The position numbers were made by a program, and so were the translations under genes. Under the pieces are notes generated by a model. That model searched no databases. It was not told the DNA's origin and worked only from the letters and a program-made list of their open reading frames with translations. Positions 1-57,278 of a stretch of DNA of 64,000 nt are shown piece after piece. Within the stretch, counting starts at the first letter, position 1, and every line of letters begins with the position of its first letter. The DNA is from Fistulifera solaris (taxonomy: Eukaryota; Bacillariophyta; Bacillariophyceae; Naviculales; Stauroneidaceae). The stretch is from NCBI GenBank assembly GCA_030295235.1, contig AP026164.1, positions 310,001 to 374,000 on the forward strand, read 5' to 3'.

Positions 1-3000
1 TTACCGCTCTTACAAAGACTCGCAGTCACGGAAATACTCGTTTCGAGCAACCATTCAAGCTGTTACGCCCATCTTTACTCTGGACCCTTCCGATCCTTTT
101 TGTTTGCTTCCAAGTCGAAGATGAGGGATACAAATCGGTATTAGTGTTTCAAAGAGAAGCTCTGGCGTGCAGTACATTGTTGATTCCGGGTGAAACCTGC
201 TTCTTTCACGACGTCACTCGAATCGCATGGAAAGTTCCCGACGAACTGAATCAAAGGCGCTTTGCCCATTTTAAAGCAAATGTCCCAACGCATGTCTTTG
301 TTGTTCACGGCAAACACCAAGTTGATATATTGGATTGTCTGAATGGGTGCGAAGTATCTCAATCGCTGATTGGTTGCATCACCCGTGTTCACACCGTGCA
401 TTCACAGAATTCATTTCCTGGCAGCCTTCTGATTCAATACATCGACTTGATTACCGGAGACGAGACCGACTGCAGGCTTTATCTCGAATACTTTCCCATG
501 TCTTCAACCTTGCAGCTAAGCTTGCGAAGTGGAACTACTATCATGGCCACCAAAATACACAATCTAGGTCAAGGGCATTTTGCTGCATGCTCGCGATCTA
601 GCATTCATGTTCACAGCATGCGACCTGACCCACCTATTTCGAACACACCTGAAGTCGCGGTCGATAGCTTTACTCCTTTTGCTCACACACGAATACGGAA
701 ATCGTGCTTTGAAACAGCTTTGTCCACTCTGATCTCTGACTTTATCGAAGGGTTCAATCGTATCGACGCGCCCAGTTTCCGGCATTGGACGCGTAGTTGG
801 CTACGGCACAATGGAGCTGTCAGCAGTAGTGCCATCTCATCTCCTCGACGAAATGTGTATGCAGAATTCTTTGATCATCAGGATGAAGCGGGGGATGTAG
901 AAGGCGACGTTGCCGAACGATCAGGATGCCATTTGAGCCGGGACCTGCAAAGGACACCCAAGATACCTTTTTTGTTACAACTGAACGATATTCAGAACGA
1001 AGCGATTCGTGTCCTTCAAATCAGGTTAGATCGTTACATTGCAAATAATCGTGTTCGGATGGGATGGACTGCTTCTTTCACGTTGGTCGCCGAGGATCTC
1101 AACGTCAACCTGAATCCGAGAAAGTGCTTGGATGCAGCTTTGTATTCGGGTGGTGCTGTCGTGTCTGCCTCAGGTCCTATGCAAGTAGATGAAGCAACCA
1201 TGTTGTTACTAAGTATCAGCAATGGGCACACCGTTCTACCCGTTGCTGTAGAGAGCAATGCTGATGTATTGCCCCAAACACATGCACTCTTCGGTTTGGA
1301 GAGTATCACTACTTCCGTTCTCTGCCTGGGTACGAGTCCTAGAGGAGATAACGACGTACGGAAACACGGAGGAGCAGATGTCTGTATTCTTCCTGTATTT
1401 GGTGGAGATAGTCGTTTTCATGGACCGTGCGTTATGATGCGAGTGACAAATCAGAATTGGATTTTTATTGTCAGTTTCCATTTACATGCAAATACTCTAA
1501 TCCAACTTTCTACTGACGAATCGTCAATCGAAACGGAAGCTCCCGAGACTCGACCGTGTCGCGAACCGGTACATTTGGGCGATGTAGCGTTACCAACTTT
1601 CGATGCGTCTCCCAATGCAAGTGACCGGATGTGTGTCAGCTTGCTTGCGAGGAAACAGTTTGCTTTCATGCGATTGAAGAAGGGGAGCTACGGAGGCATC
1701 ACACTTACTCTTGCGCATATGCCCTCAACAAAAACCGAGGGCGAAAAGAAGAATTTATCAGATCCAGGCGCTGCGTCTTTACAATCAATTGACTGTAGGC
1801 CACTCATTTTATTGGCCGAAGTTGCCACAAGGCAAATGGAAGCTTTCTTTCATGCTCCTCCATCGGAGCAACTGGATTGCTGAGTGAGCAAATAGCCACA
1901 GCTCTTGCTTTCTGGAAAATGGCAAGCTCTGAAACACAATGCTGTCTGTTACGTGGTGGTTTTGACGAAATGCTGTCCGGTGCAAGTACATATTGCCACA
2001 GTCGGAAAATCGCTGTTCTTGTGCCGCTGAACAACTTTCAAAGAGATCCGAAACGAGGATATCTACGGATACGTTCCACTTTCGACGATATGGTCGCGTT
2101 TCCCGTGTATTCCGCGAAAAAAGTGGTAAGGAGTGTCGACGAAGATGGTTTGTTTGATTATATTGGCGGCGAAAAGATGATTGCTGGTATGTTGGGACGA
2201 CACCGTAATCGGAAACAGTACGGAGATATAGCGATTGGTGAGCTCACTTCCACGATATGGACTCAAAGATACGACGGTGTTCCTACTTGCTCCATTGGGG
2301 AAATGTTCCGAAGCCTTTGTCTCGACTTACAAAGCGGGACATGTACTCACATAGCGCCATCTTTGACACGTAGAGTGGTCGGTGGCACTTTCTTGGGGGT
2401 TTCCTTCTGTCGGGCGATTACTGAGTGTTCCGAATGCTTTTCCCAGTTAGTAAAGAGCAACCATAAAGGCAAAAAAACAGGGGCGACCAGGAAGAATGTA
2501 CGCTCAAGCACGGAGCTCAGTTTTTGGAACCGTGCACGCCCTCCGACTACCGGTTCTAACGGCTCGGCCAAGAGCGAGACACCAAGCACCGACACGATTA
2601 GTACGAGTAACAACGTTGGGCGATCTGAGACACCTGATAAGTCCGACGATTTCAAGAGTTTGATGGTTTGCCCTAAACGTTGTGGTGGTCAAACAGCGAT
2701 TAAATGGGAGTGCAGCGGAACCTTGGATGATTCAACGGGCCAGGCGAAGTTGTATGCAGAGCGGGACGCTGCTCTGTTACTACTAGGACTGACCAAGCAG
2801 TTCGTATGCATGATAGAAGAAGGTGCATGGATGGAACCAAATGGTATAGTCTTCTCCAAAGCAATGGCACCGAATCCGTCGATCACGCATGCTATTTCCC
2901 GCGCCAAGTATCGCGCAAAAGAGTTGCGTCGGGGCTGTAGAATCAGCGAAAGCGATGTCTTGCAGCATATGGAGCCGTTGGCTCGCGCCGATTATCTATT

Positions 3001-3223
3001 GCAGCGCCATTGCCGATTCTCACCGGAACCAAGTCGCGATTTGATTTATTATGTTCTGTGTAAACCCATGGGTGACACCAGTCTTCATCTCAAACACACG
3101 ACAATCGATCAAGTATCGGGTCAAACGGTTCCCACGTACACACTGCCACCTTTGAAACTCGTTCTCGTCGACTGTCAAGCGGTCTCGTCACGGGGTAGGC
3201 AATACGACAATGATGAACAATAA
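1..3223 (+). CDS. OB-fold telomere/ssDNA-binding protein, possibly CTC1-like (5' truncated)
   Basis: The reading frame is open from the left edge of the window, so the N-terminus lies upstream. It ends at a TAA at 3221-3223. Around 1830-1880 the frame shifts by one base; reading across it gives about 1070 residues. The C-terminal third has a zinc-ribbon-like CPKRC and then WECSGTLDDSTGQAKLYAE, the look of an OB-fold strand pair as in RPA- and CTC1-type single-stranded DNA-binding proteins, followed by a conserved-looking block YLLQRHCRFSPEPSRDLIYY. Size and OB-like C-terminus suggest the CST-complex subunit CTC1 (telomere replication), but I recognise this only weakly; another large OB-fold protein is possible. 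It is followed by a convergent HU gene only about 70 bases away. Confidence 0.5.
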
Positions 3224-3296
3224 AACTGTTTTACTAGAGCATATTATTAGGTCTCATCGTCTTTCACGTTGATTGCTTTAGTCGTTATGTTTGATA

Positions 3297-3839
3297 TTAA
3301 CGCGAAACTGTTTTCTTGAATGCATCAAAAGCACGAAACTTGACTTTGTCTTTGGCAGGAACATGAACCGGCTACGCAAGGTATTTCTTAGAAACCTGTA
3401 ATGTGATGACAATCGTTGAACGATAATGCCAAACTACTTACCTCCCCCGTCTTGGGGTTCCGAGCGGTGTATTCTTTCGAACGAGAAGGCACAAATGTTC
3501 CAAATTTACTAATCGAAACTTGCTTCTTTTCTGCGACAGCCTGTCACAAATTGAATGAGTTTGAATTCTGCAAAATACTTCACTCTAGACCGACGGTCTG
3601 TTTTCTAAACTTACATCAATAATAGCATCAAAAGTAGTTGTTAAAATTCGTCTTGTTTCCGCCAATGACAAGTGGTGTGCCTCCGCTACTAAATGAATAA
3701 TGTCGTCGGTAGAGACACGATCTTTCGATGCTTTGGTCGCTTGGGACGACCCGGACTCGGAACTGGAAAACGATACCTGTGTCGCAATAGATCCGCGGAT
3801 CTTGTGTGCGGAAATGAAACGACGCGTAACTCGAAGCAT
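3297..3839 (-). CDS. HU/IHF-family DNA-binding protein, organelle targeted
   Basis: Three exons, 3615-3839, 3442-3540 and 3297-3371, with GTAAGT donors and CAG/TAG acceptors, give a 132-residue protein. Residues about 42-75 match the HU helical dimerisation region (STDDIIHLVAEAHHLSLAE), exon 2 holds the beta-saddle with ISKFGTFVP and the arm tip ARNPKTGE, and exon 3 gives the closing strand and C-terminal helix VKFRAFDAFKKTV. HU proteins bend and compact bacterial-type DNA. The roughly 40-residue Arg/Ser-rich N-terminus (MLRVTRRFISA) resembles a mitochondrial presequence and lacks a signal peptide, so mitochondrial nucleoid packaging is more likely than plastid (inference). The frame is intact across both introns. 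Confidence 0.88.
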
Positions 3840-4196
3840 GTTGATTACTACTAGAGAGAATGCAGATGAAAATGGAAAAGGAAAGATCGTTCACAACAAA
3901 CAATGCAATGTGAAACAATGCGGCCGACGAGCCCGTTCAATCCGCCGTTTTAAATCCGAGCACGTAACCGCGATTCAAATAGTATATCTACATAGAGTTC
4001 AAAAGCAAATGTATGAAACAATCAGTAGTCTTGTCCGTTGATCAAAAGAGGACCCGGAAAACGAAAACTTATTCATTTTTCATTATTTTTGAAAACTGGT
4101 CTTGTCGTTTCTCACATCGAAAACAATCCCTTTTCAACAGCACGACTTGATCCATTACTCTTTTCCAGACTAATACAATCATAATTTCAAAATACG
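3840..4196. promoter_or_regulatory. Divergent intergenic region between HU and GEX1-like genes
   Basis: About 360 bases separate the start codons of two divergently transcribed genes, so this stretch should carry both promoters. I see no recognisable motif or RNA gene in it. Confidence 0.4.
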
Positions 4197-12844: not shown

Positions 12845-13165
12845 GCAGAAATTCTGGAGAAGGTGTATTTCATCATACAAAAATTCTGTGCAAGTCCCAA
12901 AAAACTTTGGAGACCGTTTATTTCAACTTACAGAAATTCTGTGACCTTTCCAGAAATTCAGAACACAATGTATTTCATCTTACAGAAATTCTGAACTCAT
13001 AAGATTCGATCATACAGAAATTCTGTGTACTTTCAAGAATTCTGGACACGGGGTATTTCTTCTTACAGAAATTCTGTGAACATACCAGAAATTCAGGACA
13101 CGGTGTTTTTTATCATTCAGAAATTCTCTGTACCGTCCTTACTTTGTATTCCAAGAATTCTGCAG
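12845..13165. repeat. Degenerate array of the near-palindrome CAGAAATTCTG
   Basis: Eleven or so copies of CAGAAATTCTG or close variants (AAGAATTCTG, CAGAAATTCAG) recur every 20-35 bases, separated by GACACGGTGTATTTCATCTTA-like spacers that also repeat at about twice that period. Copies alternate between full dyad and half forms. It lies between NAA40 and the small acidic protein gene. The surrounding 12565-12844 and 13166-13403 show nothing else. Confidence 0.8.
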
Positions 13166-23204: not shown

Positions 23205-23602
23205 TTCGTATCGCCCAGATTGTCTGGGAACGTGAACCCATCGCACCCCCCGATTTTCGGGGTACGTGAAAACATCAGCCGCCCAGATTTTTTGGGCACG
23301 TAAAAACATCGCACAACCAGAGTTTCTGGGAGTGCGAATCATCCCCCAGATTTTCTGGGAACGTGAACACATCGCACGCCCCGATTTTCGGGATACGTGA
23401 ACACATCACTCGCCCAGAGTTTCGGAGTACGTGAAAACATCGAACCCCCAGATTTTCTGGGAACGCGAATTCATCCACACCCAGATTTTCGGGGAATGTG
23501 AAAACATCAAACAGACCGATTTTCGGAATACGTGAAAACATTTTACCCGCCCAGATTTTTTTGGCAACGTGAAAACATTCCACGATACGTTTTCTGGGAT
23601 AG
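23205..23602. repeat. Tandem array of about 12 hairpin-forming units, ~34 bp period
   Basis: Twelve units of 33-35 bp (one of 28) each carry a small inverted repeat followed by ACGTGAAAACATC. The hairpin is CCCAGATTTTCTGGG in some units and CCCCGATTTTCGGGG in others, so paired stem positions change together. Hairpins start near 23214, 23248, 23282, 23317, 23344, 23379, 23413, 23446, 23480, 23515, 23550 and 23583. Read on the minus strand, part of it translates as repeats of FTFPENLG, but the 34-bp period and indels make continued coding unlikely. Confidence 0.9.
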
Positions 23603-36452: not shown

Positions 36453-37288
36453 TTATTTGTCTAATTATCGAAACGCTCTCATTTTGAAATGTGTTTTCTC
36501 CACACCAATTCGATTATATTATCATGTGATACATTTGCGATGCGCAATCAGATCGTTGGGCTATCATTTCCGCTGGATCGTTGGTCGTGGATCTTGACTA
36601 TACACCGAAAGTGTTACTCAAGATCAGTCCTGAGTATGAACTAATGGATCGCTAGTTTATTTGTCAAATTATCGAAACGCTCTCATTTTGAAATGTGTTT
36701 TCTCCACACTCCACACTCCACACCAATTTGATTATATTACCATGTGATACATTTGCGATGCGCAATTAGATCGTTGAGCTATCATTTCCGCTGGATCGTT
36801 GGTCGTGGATCTTAACTATACGCCGAAAGTGTTGGCGACTTTTCGACAAGTCTCAAGTTAGACTCAAGCACAGTCCTGAGTATGAACTAAGGGATCGCTA
36901 GTTTATTTGTCAAATTATCGAAACACTCTCATTTTGAAATGTGTTTTCTCCACACTCCACACTCCACACCAATTTGTTTATATTACCATGTGATATATTT
37001 GCGATGCGCAATTAGATCGTTGAGCTATCATTTCCGCTGGATCGTTGGTCGTGGATCTTGACTATACGCCGAAAGTGTTGGCGACTTTTCGACAAGACTC
37101 AAGTTAGACTCAAGCTCAGTCCTGAGTATGAACTAATGGATCGCTAGTTTATTTGTCAAATTATCGAAACGCTCTCATTTTGAAATGTGTTTTCTCCACA
37201 CTCCACACTCCACACCAATTTGATTATATTACCATGTGATACATTTGCGATGCGCAATTAGATCGTTGAGCTATCATTTCCGCTGGAT
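36453..37288. repeat. Minisatellite, four tandem units, 246-bp period
   Basis: Unit starts (TTATTTGTC) at 36453, 36657, 36903 and 37149. Units 2 and 3 are 246 bp each; unit 1 is 204 bp and lacks a ~40-base GCGACTTTTCGACAAG segment; unit 4 is truncated at 37288 after CATTTCCGCTGGAT. Within units there is a CACTCCACACTCCACACC subrepeat, present in units 2-4 and shortened in unit 1. Units 2-4 differ by only a few substitutions, so expansion is recent. It ends about 200 bases before the RBBP6 start codon. Confidence 0.92.
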
Positions 37289-37490
37289 TGTTTCGTTTCA
37301 CGCTTGACGTCCGCACCTCCGTCCGCCGTGTTTTTTTTTGCTGGCCCTGTTGCACTACCAGTACCAGGTATGGCATCCATTTGCATGATGCTTGATGATT
37401 GCATGAGATTGCACGTTTGAATAATAAAGACACAAACAAAGAACGATCTAACGTCGATATAAGTAACTTAGAAAGCAAACTAAAGTAACA

Positions 37491-51228: not shown

Positions 51229-52280
51229 CTACGAAAGCTCTCTACGCGGACCGGGTAAATATGGGGGACGATTGGCTGTCACCTTGATGCGTCGTTGCTC
51301 AAAATCAAGATCGGATACCCAAATTCGCACGCGATCTCCAACCTTCATAAACTCAGTTGGATGCGATCCCTTCGACCAACCAAACGCAGGATGGTCCATG
51401 AAGTGCAAGAAAGCATCCACTTCTGCGCCTACCTCCACATAAGCTCCAAAGTCGGTGATACGTTTGAATTCGCCCCACAATTCGTCATCTACTTGCATAT
51501 CCACAAGAGCAATCCGATTCTTTGCAAAGTCATCACTGGTCTCTTCTCTCAAAATGTCTTCCGGCAACATTGATAAATGTAATTTTTTCTTTTCCGCATT
51601 TATAGAACGAACGCGGACCATCACTTCATCGCCCGGTGTCAAAATCTGTTTGGGGTGTTCCACAAAGACGTCTCTACTTATTTGAGAAACGTGCAAGAGA
51701 CCGTCACATTCGGTTCCAATGTCAATATAAGCGCCAAATTTTGTTAGAGAAATCACTATACCCGTCACTTCCATACCAGGAATCAGCGCTGTCAAGGGTG
51801 TTCGATCATCGAAAGGTAAAGGACGCTGTACTTTTGCAGCCCGCTTCTTTTCTCGCTGTTGCTCTTTGACGAACATCATCATCCCTGTGTGTAACAAAAT
51901 GAATTCGAAATGAGGCTATGTTGATGATCTGTACTCCGAGTACTTGCATCGAGTTTTGACTTACGTCGTTTTTTGGTTTGATCCGATTCTCGTTTCTTTT
52001 TGTTGACAATCGCACGTTCTTGTCCAGCTTTCACCAGACGCTCTTTTACTCTCGGATTGAGTGAATCCCAGCGCGAGCTTTTGATTTTCTCTTCAACTGG
52101 TTGCACTTGTGCCGGTTCATCTTCTTCGTCATCGTCGGTCCAAAGTACGCTGATATCAGCATCGGTCGCTTGTAATGTCCTCAGTGTGGATGGCGCCATT
52201 CGGTGTGTACAAAATGGAGTAAAGGCACGGACTTGTGCGTGCACCAGAAGCAGGCACACAATAAGAACGTTATTCATCAT
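51229..52280 (-). CDS. Plastid S1-domain RNA-binding protein
   Basis: Exons 51965-52280 and 51229-51884, intron 51885-51964, 323 residues. MMNNVLIVCLLLVHAQVRAFTPF is a signal peptide with VRAF cleavage site, pointing to the plastid. Two S1 domains: MEVTGIVISLTKFGAYIDIG with LLHVSQISRDV, and DELWGEFKRITDFGAYVEVG with FLHFMDHPAFG. Tandem S1 proteins with this layout include plastid ribosomal protein S1-like factors and elongation factor Ts-associated S1 domains. The N-terminal linker is acidic then basic (DDDEEDEP, KKKRESDQTKKRR). A role in plastid translation or mRNA binding is inferred. The frame is intact. Confidence 0.85.
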
Positions 52281-52781: not shown

Positions 52782-54374
52782 TCACTTGACAATTCTCTTT
52801 TGCTTGTGTTCTTTCGTATCCAAGCCATACAGTGGCAGCTTGCGCAAATTGTGTGCCTCAACCCGATTCTCGTCAAAACGTGTCCCTACCGGATTTCTTT
52901 TCAAAAGAAAGATACAGATTTTTCTCCGAAAAATCTTATGATACGGTAGACGCCGTCATAGCGATGCAACACTTTTGCACCACCTTTTGTTTTCGAAAAA
53001 CTCGAATCGGAATTTTTGCGGAAAATTCACTAGCATGGCCCGGGCGCCGGATTTCAAGTTGGCCGTATAGACAAGCGCGTCAAATGTATCATCGTCGCCC
53101 TTGTACTCTCCCGACAAACTAATGGCTTCGCATCCGCGCTTCCTAGATCCACTCACACCTTGTTGCGTCCTGAAGAGAGAGTTCGACAATGTGAGACCTG
53201 CATGTAACATTTCAGACGAGTATGGCGCGACCAAGAAGTGTACTTACAAATGGTATCCATGTTGTATCATTTCTGCTCGAGTGTAAAGCTTTCCTTCAAC
53301 CAAGCCTTCCACACAATTACCAAAGGGCTTCGCCTTTAACGGTGGAGGTGGACGTAGATCGTATATTGGCGTACCAGTATCTTCTTTTAGGGTTTTTTGC
53401 AAGCCATCGCGGAAAATGACGACGACCCGTGCCTCTCGTGGATCGCTGCATCCGTCCTCCAAATTCTTCTTGGGCAGTACAGCATGAATGTAATTTTGTT
53501 GCATCAACCCTGATTAGAAGATTGAGTTAAAACAAGACAGTATTTGCATTCACACGACGCATAAACAGAATTTACCATCCATAAGGTAAGCGTCACCAGA
53601 ACCAGGAAAAATCTTGTATTCAGAGTCACCGTCTTCAGGACCTTTTTCTTTCACTTTGATGGAAACACAACGACCGCTTCGTGACGCATTGACAACAACA
53701 GCAAAAATTACCGACTCCCCTTGATTATCGTCCGCGTGATAATGAATTCTGTCATTCGAACCTCGGTAGTAGATGACGTTTGCCCCAATCCGAAAATCAC
53801 CGACTTGGCAGATTTCTAAAGCCCGGTCCCACATTTGCTCGATACCTTTCACTCGTTTTAGAGGGAAAGCCTTCATTTTAGCAACACGATAGTCGTAGCC
53901 CGGGTTCGGAGCCTTAAAATCATCTTTGGCTTGCTTGTGCAAAAGAAATTGTGCTCGAGGCTGATTCGTACTTTGTGTTTGATATACACGGAACAAGTCG
54001 CACTTGTTGAGCTCCCGTACTATTCCTCTTCGCTCTCTTTCGTCATTCAGCCAGCCGGGGTACAAGGTCAGAGTGCCTCCGCGTTGCAAAGGGATAGTGA
54101 TGGTATCGTTTTGCCACGTCTCTGGCTCGAAACTGCGAAAGGGCGACCACTCTCCTTTCTTACCATCAAAATGTCGACGCTGTATAAGAGGGGGTTGTGA
54201 CACTTTGACGGACGGTGCTTTCTTTGCGACAATTCTCTTCTTCTTCTTTTTGAGCGATGGCTTTTGGCATGCGGGGGCCGAGGAAGTAGGTCGGATCTTC
54301 TTTGCTGGTTTTGTGCATGACAACACGGCCGACTTCGTCAGTTTCTTCTTGCTACTGGTGGTCGGCGCCTTCAT
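52782..54374 (-). CDS. AlkB-type 2OG-Fe(II) dioxygenase fused to an SRA/YDG methylcytosine-reader domain
   Basis: Three exons, 53576-54374, 53248-53509 and 52782-53170 (introns 53510-53575 and 53171-53247), about 483 residues. The first ~50 residues are Lys-rich, nuclear-localisation-like. Residues ~65-290 are an AlkB fold: GANVIYYRGSNDRIHYHADD (Fe ligands His and Asp, HxD), second Fe His in QQNYIHAVLP, and 2OG-binding Arg in ARVVVIFRDG. The SRA domain follows without a linker: PFGNCVEGLVEGKLYTRAEM, GVSGSRKRGCEAISLSGEY, DALVYTG, IPIRVFRKTKGG, YDGVYRIIRFFGEKSV. Reading through requires two one-base additions, at CC 53063-53064 (restores the YTG motif) and AAA 52908-52910. Predicted action: oxidation or repair of a modified or alkylated base at methylcytosine sites (inference). 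Confidence 0.85.
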
Positions 54375-54776: not shown

Positions 54777-56839
54777 TCACTGGGATGAGTGCATCGACTG
54801 CCGTTGGATCAATTCTTGATATTTCGTGCATCTCTGCAACAATTCATCATGTGTTCCAGAGTCGATGATCCGGTGGTCATCCACCACAACGATTTGCTTC
54901 GCTCGTTTAATCGTCGAGAGTCGATGCGCCACAATCACCACAGTTCGCCCAACTACCGCCTTATCAATAGCTTCCTGCACGAGATGTTCCGACTCCGCAT
55001 CGAGTGCCGACGTAGCTTCGTCGAGCAGTAAAATTCTGGGATTTACTAGTAAGGCTTTGCGTACCAGGTAGATGAATCAGAAAAGTGTAAGGAATCATGT
55101 TCTGTTCAAAACGAGCAAAACTAATATGAGATTGCGTACCTCGAGCGATAGCTATGCGCTGCTTTTGACCACCACTGAGTTTTACCCCACGCTCACCAAC
55201 CATAGTATCGTATTGTTGTGGCCATTCCACAATGAAATCATGAGCATTTGCCTTCCGACTCACTTCCTCGAGTTCTTCTAGGCTAACTTCACGATCAATT
55301 CCGTAGCAAATATTCTCGCGAACTGTGAGTCCGAAGAGTTGCGGCTCTTGTTGCACGAAGCCGATATTGGAACGAAGCCACGATAAATCGAGATCTCTCA
55401 AATCATGACCGTCGATGCAGATCGCGCCCGACGACACATCGTAAAAGCGCTGTAATAATGCCACCACAGTTGATTTACCGGCACCCGAGGCACCGACCAA
55501 GGCCGCAGTCGAGTTGGCTGGAATGGTCAATGAAAAGTTTACAAGAACCGCACTCTCTGGACGCGAAGGATAGAAGAAGTTGACATTCTCGAATCGTATG
55601 TTTCCTTCCATGGCATCTGGTCGTAGCAATGGAATCGTGGGAACATAGTGATTGACGGTGATTATTGCCGGGGTCTCTTCTTCATCTCTCCCTGACTGAG
55701 ACTTATCAAGTGATGCATTTTTCTGTTCAACCGGAATTGGAATTGCTGGAACACGATTCAGTAGATACATGATACGACCTGAAGCACCTTGTGCTTCCAA
55801 TAGCTTGGATACGAAAGAGCTTGTTTGTCCCAAACCAGCACCAATGTAAAAGACATACGACTGGAAAGCTGTCAATTCACCTAAAGTAATTTCACCGTCA
55901 TTGACCAGTTTGAATCCGTACCACAAGCTGACGTACAAACATCCAAATCCAACGCCGAAAATTAATGTAAAGAAACCAGCTGCAACAATGGCTTTAAAGA
56001 ATCCAACTCGATAGGTTGTTGTTTTGTCTTGATCTTTTTTGTGAGTAGCCCACCAGAGTGGAAACTGATCCGGATCCCCAACGACTTTTTTCATACCGAT
56101 GCGCTTCGCGTTTCTCGGCCGCAAAGGATTGCACGGTCCTCATGGCACCTAGCACCTCCGTCGCGTGTCCTTGCGCCGTGCCCAACACATTTTGGTATTC
56201 ACGGCTCAACTTTCCCAACCATGTTCCGATGGGAATGCTGATACAAAACAGCACAACAACACATCCCAAGACGACGATCGCCAGATAGGCTGATATCCAA
56301 AACATGAGTGCCATACAAACGACTAGCTTCACCATCCCCAATATGACTTCTGGCAAGGCTTGACTGGTGCCGATTTGTAAAACAGCTGTGTCACTCGTTA
56401 GACGCGAAATCAATTCTCCCGACTGGTGTTCGTCAAAGAACGACATTTCTTGCTTCATCAACGAAACAAATAACAGATTCCGTAAACGAGCAACGACGCG
56501 TTCTCCCGCTACGCTCATCAGTGCCTGTCGAATGAATCCCAAGAAGGAACCGACGGAATGCACCACAAGAACGGTAATCATCGTACGAGAAATATCTTGC
56601 ATGCGATCGACGGCTTCCGGATCTACCAATGTATCGTAGGCATCGGCCAGTAGTAACGGATTCAATAACGGTGCACTCTCCGCGACGATCATTAGGAAAC
56701 AGGCAATCGCTAAACCAGGCCATTCGGGCTTCGCTAATCGCAGTAAGTTGGCTAGAGAAGGCGTTTCGGACGGTACAGCTTTGGTTTGGTTGAAGGCATC
56801 CGGATGATTGGGAGCTGAAGAACTTGCCGCTTCGCTCAT
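54777..56839 (-). CDS. ABCB-type half-transporter (TAP/MDL-like)
   Basis: About 658 residues. An N-terminal membrane domain with six predicted helices ([36 protein letters not shown]-type segments, [19 protein letters not shown]) precedes one nucleotide-binding domain: Walker [16 protein letters not shown]-loop VQQEPQLF, signature [16 protein letters not shown], Walker [14 protein letters not shown]-loop IVAHRLST. This matches TAP/ABCB half-transporters that work as dimers exporting peptides or related substrates. Intron 55055-55139 interrupts the signature end. One excess base at the T6 run 56086-56091 breaks the frame ([16 protein letters not shown] restored with five). No clear mitochondrial leader is seen, so vacuolar, ER or mitochondrial placement is open. 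Confidence 0.88.
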
Positions 56840-57278
56840 CGTTTATTTATTCAATGTAACTCTCTATTATGTATTGTGCTAGCTTGAAAATATGTTCTTT
56901 TGTGCTCATTCGTGTCGAAGAATGATGCATTTTTCCTTATTCACATCCTTTTTTCTTTTCTCGTCCATTTACTAGGTAGTGCCGGGACCCCAGATGAGTT
57001 AAGTCGGAAAATCGTAACTCCTCTCCTTTTTACGCCATAATGAACGCTTCATACAAACAATGAAAATACAAATGGAGCCGTCATCCACCGCTCTTCACGG
57101 TACCGACGACAATAGCATCTTTACAATGAAAGTAATTTTGGTGATCTGGCTTTCATGGTCTCAAGCAAAGCTCAGCTCTCTATAGGACACGCTATTGCTT
57201 GAAACAGAATTTTTTTTAAATTCCGGGACTGAAAACAAGCTGAGTCATCAGTCGATCCTCTTAAGACTACTCTTTGCA
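56840..57278. promoter_or_regulatory. Divergent intergenic region
   Basis: About 440 bases between the divergent ABCB and beta-trefoil genes, including AAATTCCGGGACTGAAAAC near 57219, similar to the ATTTCCGGGACT repeats at 29.3 kb. Confidence 0.4.

Follow-up and report, generated by a model that had tools for sequence, protein, structure and literature searches.

A gene on the minus strand of a Fistulifera solaris contig is predicted to join an AlkB-type dioxygenase to an SRA domain, coupling a modified-base reader and an oxidative demethylase in one polypeptide. The fusion is confirmed by comparison with predicted and database proteins, and we tentatively propose that its product is an ALKBH2/3-type Fe(II)/2-oxoglutarate dioxygenase whose SRA domain would tether it to DNA that carries methylated or other modified bases, where it would repair N-methylated bases. 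The window examined in the present study, meaning the whole stretch of 64,000 nucleotides (G000:C4:310001-374000), belongs to a genome of 51.7 Mb in 61 contigs. PMC5935921 describes F. solaris as a pennate diatom of allopolyploid constitution, its chromosomes occurring in pairs. Several contigs of this genome pair by matching genes (C3/C4, C5/C6, C7/C8, C15/C16 and C17/C18), and a syntenic homeologue of the fusion gene is located on C3.

The fusion gene spans window positions 54374..52782, begins with an ATG at 54374 and has two introns. Its features and its neighbours are listed below in window coordinates, with P0001 to P0010 denoting the ten proteins returned by our widest protein search.

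53576..54374, minus strand: exon 1, encoding a low-complexity, basic N-terminus and the larger part of the AlkB domain, including H213 and D215 (PF13532 on the open reading frame, 5.7e-11; identity to P0001)
53510..53575, minus strand: intron 1, GT-AG, 66 nt (P0002, P0003, P0004 and P0006 diverge from P0001 at the same residue)
53248..53509, minus strand: exon 2, with the distal histidine H275, R294-x5-R300, a linker and the SRA start (FGNCVEGLVEGKLYTR) in one open frame (a like bridge is present in P0007 and P0009)
53170..53247, minus strand: intron 2, GT-AG, 78 nt (same place in C3; P0007 and P0009 apparently read into the intron at the same residue)
52782..53169, minus strand: exon 3, with the remaining SRA and a C-terminal tail, its frame broken three times (by comparison with P0001)
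51229..51915, minus strand: neighbouring frame of an S1 RNA-binding protein (counterpart on C3)
54964..56842, minus strand: neighbouring ABC transporter frames, ABC_membrane and ABC_tran (also present on C3, the two copies differing by single bases)

Residues 1-406 of the spliced window protein agree exactly with those of P0001 (483 residues), a gene prediction annotated 'hypothetical protein FisN_5Lh168 [Fistulifera solaris]'. This identity bears out the claim of an earlier note, made from the DNA letters of the window, that an AlkB active-site pattern is followed by SRA blocks in one gene with two introns. The first intron had been placed exactly (53510-53575) and the second one base off, at 53171 rather than 53170, while the block given there as 'YTG' in fact reads YTA. 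Both domains lie above their curated Pfam cut-offs in P0001, as the profile search suggested in the note required: PF13532 (2OG-FeII_Oxy_2) matches residues 102-300 (3.8e-15, 57.1 bits against 31.2) and PF02182 (SAD_SRA) residues 342-439 (1.4e-13, 51.2 bits against 30.7), both well outside chance expectation. These two are the only Pfam domains found in P0001 at E <= 0.1, which is not the architecture of a UHRF1 orthologue. A single open frame (53513-53244), corresponding to exon 2, holds the AlkB distal histidine, the Arg-x5-Arg pair and the SRA N-terminus together. Because this exon is open across both domains, the AlkB-SRA join is independent of splicing, and its continuity from the distal histidine to the SRA start counts against two separate genes.

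The protein search (E <= 1, 6242 candidates scored) recovered both Pfam domains in one model for two of the ten proteins (P0001 and P0005), the AlkB domain alone in three (P0002-P0004), the SRA domain alone in three (P0007, P0008 and P0010) and neither by Pfam in two (P0006 and P0009). P0005 comes from a Bacillariaceae sp. MAG, comprises 803 aa and shares 37% identity with P0001 over 75% of its length, with Pfam scores close to those of P0001 (PF13532 57.7 bits against a cut-off of 31.2; PF02182 52.4 bits against 30.7). The other eight proteins are partial and look like reading frames truncated by introns, contig ends or an internal start: P0002, P0003, P0004 and P0006 diverge from P0001 where exon 1 ends and stop within ~30 residues, P0007 and P0009 extend from the last part of AlkB into the first part of the SRA, and P0004 and P0007 stem from the same source, on contigs of 3628 nt each. 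Together with P0005, these partial frames place the fusion in Fistulifera, in close relatives and in one Bacillariaceae bin, so that the earlier note's suggestion that other algae may have such fusions holds for diatoms (P0005, and P0004 with P0007). Absence elsewhere is weak evidence, since the search requires shared 5-residue words. A viral or bacterial origin was considered and set aside, the full protein having no relatives in viral contigs, bacterial and archaeal genomes or phage records; each contig scan was based on two short peptide patterns, by which distant relatives are missed. By the same kind of scan the SRA alone had three relatives in viral contigs, with 28-34% identity, and none in the genome-contig collection (two short peptide patterns).

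The AlkB part of P0001 has the full catalytic set (H213, D215, H275, R294 and R300 in P0001 numbering), and the HxD motif, the distal histidine and R-x5-R are also complete in P0005. The HxD...H...R-x5-R pattern is shared with ALKBH2 and ALKBH3. A profile of four AlkB pieces matched ALKBH3 in all four of its PDB matches at E <= 10, a weak likeness (best E 0.0061), and the fusion differs in having an SRA domain C-terminal of AlkB, whereas ALKBH2 and ALKBH3 are not known to carry a reader domain. Six AlkB groups of the F. solaris genome were compared with the fusion by hhalign, using small profiles without a tree and with four of the six group names taken from motif reading. Two groups align, namely an AlkB fused to a THUMP/UPF0020 methyltransferase (E 3.8e-5) and a C6/C5 AlkB (E 7.2e-6), and four do not (E 0.0097-0.13); the two aligning groups are themselves nearest to ALKBH3 and ALKBH2 in the PDB. 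Like TET/JBP enzymes, the fusion would oxidise methyl groups on DNA bases with Fe(II) and 2-oxoglutarate, and some TETs also carry readers, of the CXXC type; the fusion, however, is of the AlkB family, and no Tet_JBP domain was found in P0001 by Pfam scan. On these comparisons the AlkB part groups with the ALKBH2/3 repair enzymes rather than with TET. In a clustering from 2012 (PMC3265494, section 16), ALKBH2, ALKBH3 and ALKBH11-16 form one group (group II), ALKBH12 being listed under diatoms and ALKBH13 under stramenopiles. Two AlkB arrangements of the genome were also observed. The ALKBH2/3-like AlkB fused to a THUMP/UPF0020 methyltransferase-like domain is located at L002 (G000:C7 ~1512k; Pfam on L002), with a like sequence on the paired contig at L003 (C8 ~1347k), and two separate AlkB Pfam matches (C1:2166205-2166765 and 2165496-2165744) occur close together at L009 (G000:C1:2164705-2168265), with a similar pair on C2, perhaps as one protein with tandem AlkB units.

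A profile of five SRA pieces identified TagI as the closest solved SRA (1.5e-14), followed by UHRF1 (best 2.1e-6), SUVH9 (3.8e-6) and SUVH5 (5.2e-6). The SRAs of TagI, UHRF1/2 and SUVH proteins read modified DNA. The G(V/I)xG, YT, P(I/V)RV and RYDGxY blocks of SAD_SRA are common to the fusion and to UHRF1, VIM and SUVH proteins, from which the fusion differs in having no RING, PHD, Tudor or SET domain, no finger segment and a variable pocket aspartate. In TagI (6ghs) the SRA is likewise paired with an enzyme, an HNH nuclease rather than a dioxygenase, and the loop after its pocket, from YT to P(I/V)RV, has 34 residues against 18 in P0001 and P0005 (16 fewer). The UHRF1 match of the SRA profile breaks at this same segment, which in UHRF1 holds the finger loop that senses hemimethylation. 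Being short where UHRF1 has its finger, the fusion SRA is unlikely to act as a sensor of hemimethylated CG.

Both domains are maintained. Comparison of the window copy with its C3 homeologue (Nei-Gojobori style; 463 codons used, leaving out gap-touched codons and a few beside the frame breaks) gave an overall dN/dS of 0.177, with a synonymous divergence of 0.32-0.41. Within the AlkB part of exon 1 the ratio was 0.123 (204 codons), while exon 2 gave 0.130 (86 codons) and the SRA in exon 3 gave 0.194 (82 codons). The ranges were 0.12-0.13 for AlkB and 0.15-0.19 for the SRA, and the C-terminal and N-terminal tails gave 0.204 (34 codons) and 0.417 (57 codons), respectively. The low ratios in AlkB and SRA indicate that both domains are kept by purifying selection.

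As for function, we tentatively suggest that the compact SRA would dock on a modified base in the CG-methylated repeats maintained by the diatom DNMT5, that docking would raise the local concentration of the dioxygenase, and that the dioxygenase may then oxidatively strip N-linked methyl groups, above all from 3-methylcytosine (3mC), a by-product of cytosine methyltransferases. We infer here the nuclear site, the binding of 5mC or another modified base, the substrate and the link to methyltransferase by-products. According to PMC8857917, citing Rosic 2018, DNMT1 and DNMT3 make 3mC, ALKBH2 removes it, and retention of DNA methylation is said to require retention of ALKBH2. If the fusion does repair 3mC, its architecture would be direct evidence for the proposed tie between methylation and alkylation repair. 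Other ALKBH2/3-like proteins of the genome could perform general repair, which counts against this proposal.

Methylation is represented in the genome by 11 matches to C5-methylase, most of them on paired contigs. On C16 a Tudor frame is followed by a C5-methylase match and then by SNF2 frames, the order typical of DNMT5, and a paired C5-methylase match with like frames is present on C15; the two constitute a predicted DNMT5-type gene pair. Four of six MBD matches were over the cut-off. The CpG observed/expected ratio of the window (1.14) was considered as a sign of methylation and discarded as uninformative, because diatom 5mC sits mostly in repeats; PMC9998398 describes CG-methylated transposon islands, DNMT5a-dependent in Phaeodactylum. 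UDG-family genes were observed a few kb from the DNMT5-type genes (G000:C16:538513-538989, UNG type, and C15:653945-654328), and a 622-aa frame at L035 (G000:C14:563562-564041) appears to hold an Fpg/Nei-type glycosylase (by motif reading) followed by a UNG-type UDG (by tool match).

A possible, if somewhat unlikely, alternative to tethered repair is that the SRA no longer reads 5mC and serves as a degenerate DNA-binding module or as a reader of another modified base, directing AlkB to chromatin or to damage. The shortened YT-P(I/V)RV segment is consistent with such degeneration, as is the pocket of P0005. Pocket positions were located by their distance from the YT pair (YA in P0005), and the residues that we take to form the pocket (Tyr/Asp/Tyr/Thr) are only partly conserved. 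P0001 and P0010 have all four, and P0005 is without one Tyr, the Asp and the Thr; the Asp, presumed equivalent of UHRF1 D469, is retained in P0001 and P0010 but is replaced by Asn in C3/P0008 and P0007 and by Gly in P0005. Since these pocket Asp, Tyr and Thr residues vary, 5mC reading may not be conserved in the family. P0005 also has two N-terminal repeats (residues ~21-155, 57% alike) of the form Cys-x4-Cys...Trp-Phe-Thr-Cys-x2-Cys, perhaps a zinc-binding module, which could provide a further means of association with chromatin; as CW domains these repeats gave no Pfam match at E <= 1, and a match to a ribosomal protein was weak (E 0.13). Against degeneration, both pocket tyrosines and the threonine are kept in all four Fistulifera-like sequences listed besides P0005, and the SRA is under purifying selection. 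Binding of 5mC or of another modified base is thus possible in the Fistulifera-like members.

An ALKBH2/3-type enzyme placed on methylated DNA has two plausible jobs, clean-up of by-products as proposed above or oxidation of 5mC itself. In the second, which we regard as unlikely, the SRA would flip or locate 5mC and AlkB would oxidise that or a neighbouring 5mC to 5hmC, 5fC and 5caC, leading to demethylation independently of TET. According to PMC11431407, which cites Bian 2019, m5C in both single- and double-stranded DNA can be a substrate of ABH2 and ABH3 in vitro. The genome contents are also in keeping with an unconventional eraser: six-frame searches found no candidates for Tet_JBP and no Perm-CXXC (DEMETER-type) match over the cut-off (two lay below), so that no dedicated 5mC eraser was seen. 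The searches took one exon at a time, by which split domains can be missed, and these genome-wide absences are therefore provisional. On the other side, the established substrates of AlkB-group enzymes are chiefly N-alkyl bases, and a 5mC flipped into the SRA pocket would be hidden from the AlkB site. A TDG-like partner glycosylase was sought among the four UDG-family places of the genome, and the two that were read are of the UNG type with GQDPYH, the other two lying on C13 and C15. The repair reading is favoured over 5mC oxidation because the known chemistry of the group suffices and no TDG-like partner was seen among the UDG-family places read. The earlier note had interpreted the protein as a methylcytosine reader-eraser; of this the complete catalytic residues and the SRA, by profile, hold, whereas the finger stretch is absent, the pocket aspartate varies and the dioxygenase is of the ALKBH2/3 rather than the TET type. 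Repair of N-alkylated bases in methylated DNA would fit at least as well as 5mC demethylation. That active demethylation evolved by a second route, through an AlkB-family, SRA-guided 5mC oxidase in a lineage with a DNMT5-type methyltransferase and no detected TET/JBP or DEMETER-type eraser, is a shade less probable again; were 5mC oxidation true, diatoms would possess an AlkB-based demethylase.

The fusion may instead be directed at RNA, for example as a demethylase of tRNA or mRNA with an SRA that is a general nucleic-acid-binding fold; we consider this improbable. ALKBH3, the sole PDB match of the AlkB profile, acts on both RNA and ssDNA according to PMC11431407. Opposing this, the solved SRA proteins matched by our profile (TagI, UHRF1/2 and SUVH) read modified DNA, and Pfam detected no RNA-binding domain in P0001 or P0005.

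The third exon of the window copy requires separate consideration, as single bases are missing from it, by comparison with P0001, at three places (near 53017-53013, 52985-52980 and 52906-52903). As it stands, the window reading frame stops after 424 residues, and the first frame piece of exon 3 alone scores 24.9 bits for SAD_SRA against a cut-off of 30.7. The SRA blocks IPIRVFRK and YDGVYRIIRFF named in the earlier note are present and lie in different frames of the window, the breaks having been overlooked. P0001 is continuous across all three places, with a full SRA and tail. The C3 homeologue is open at the first two and shares the third, across which P0008, matching the C3 reading, is continuous; a further one-base loss, close to the N-terminus, is found in the C3 copy and is not shared by P0002, which otherwise matches that copy at 100% over the compared part. 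Two one-base coding differences, one of them in an A run, likewise separate the copies of the adjoining ABC transporter. Because database proteins read through the breaks, the latter are likely to be assembly errors. The reading that two genes were run together, or that the SRA part has decayed in this copy, could draw on the three breaks and on the two losses in C3, yet it is already disfavoured and very improbable, given that P0001 (for C4) and P0002 and P0008 (for C3) cross every break place, that all breaks are one-base losses at short runs, that the SRA and the tail past the last break both have a low dN/dS, that exon 2 is one open frame spanning both domains, and that the same fusion recurs in P0005.

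Each of the two domains is known, and proteins that combine them bear no annotation beyond 'hypothetical protein' or 'YDG domain-containing protein'. The AlkB-SRA fusion was named in no title or abstract start found in the open-licence PMC literature, where a prior mention is possible. Many odd fusions are listed in the reviews that Iyer and Aravind have devoted to domains of DNA modification in eukaryotes.

In six-frame searches of the genome, which take one exon at a time, SAD_SRA exceeded the cut-off only on C3, in the homeologue of the fusion gene; the window copy with its frame breaks and one helicase-linked stretch fall below it. The latter was examined as a second genomic SRA (C28:121863-122111, 23.7 bits, below the cut-off) and rejected, its frame overlapping a DEAD/DEAH helicase frame and a profile comparison with the fusion SRA giving nothing. 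In the surrounding locus L028 (G000:C28:119000-125000, positions 2126-4144) an SRA-like stretch of 21-24 bits lies in a long frame over the helicase frame, possibly representing a helicase-SRA protein.

Several repeats were also observed. A tandem repeat with a 246 bp unit (2.8 copies, 96% alike) occupies window positions 36616-37292. Tandem arrays with palindromes resembling CCAGAATTTCTGG are located at window positions 12951-13133 and 23210-23578 and, with units of 207 bp beside the C3 copy of the fusion gene, at positions 2-1019 of L001, with five matches to the palindrome in the window (<=1 mismatch) against 0.13 expected.
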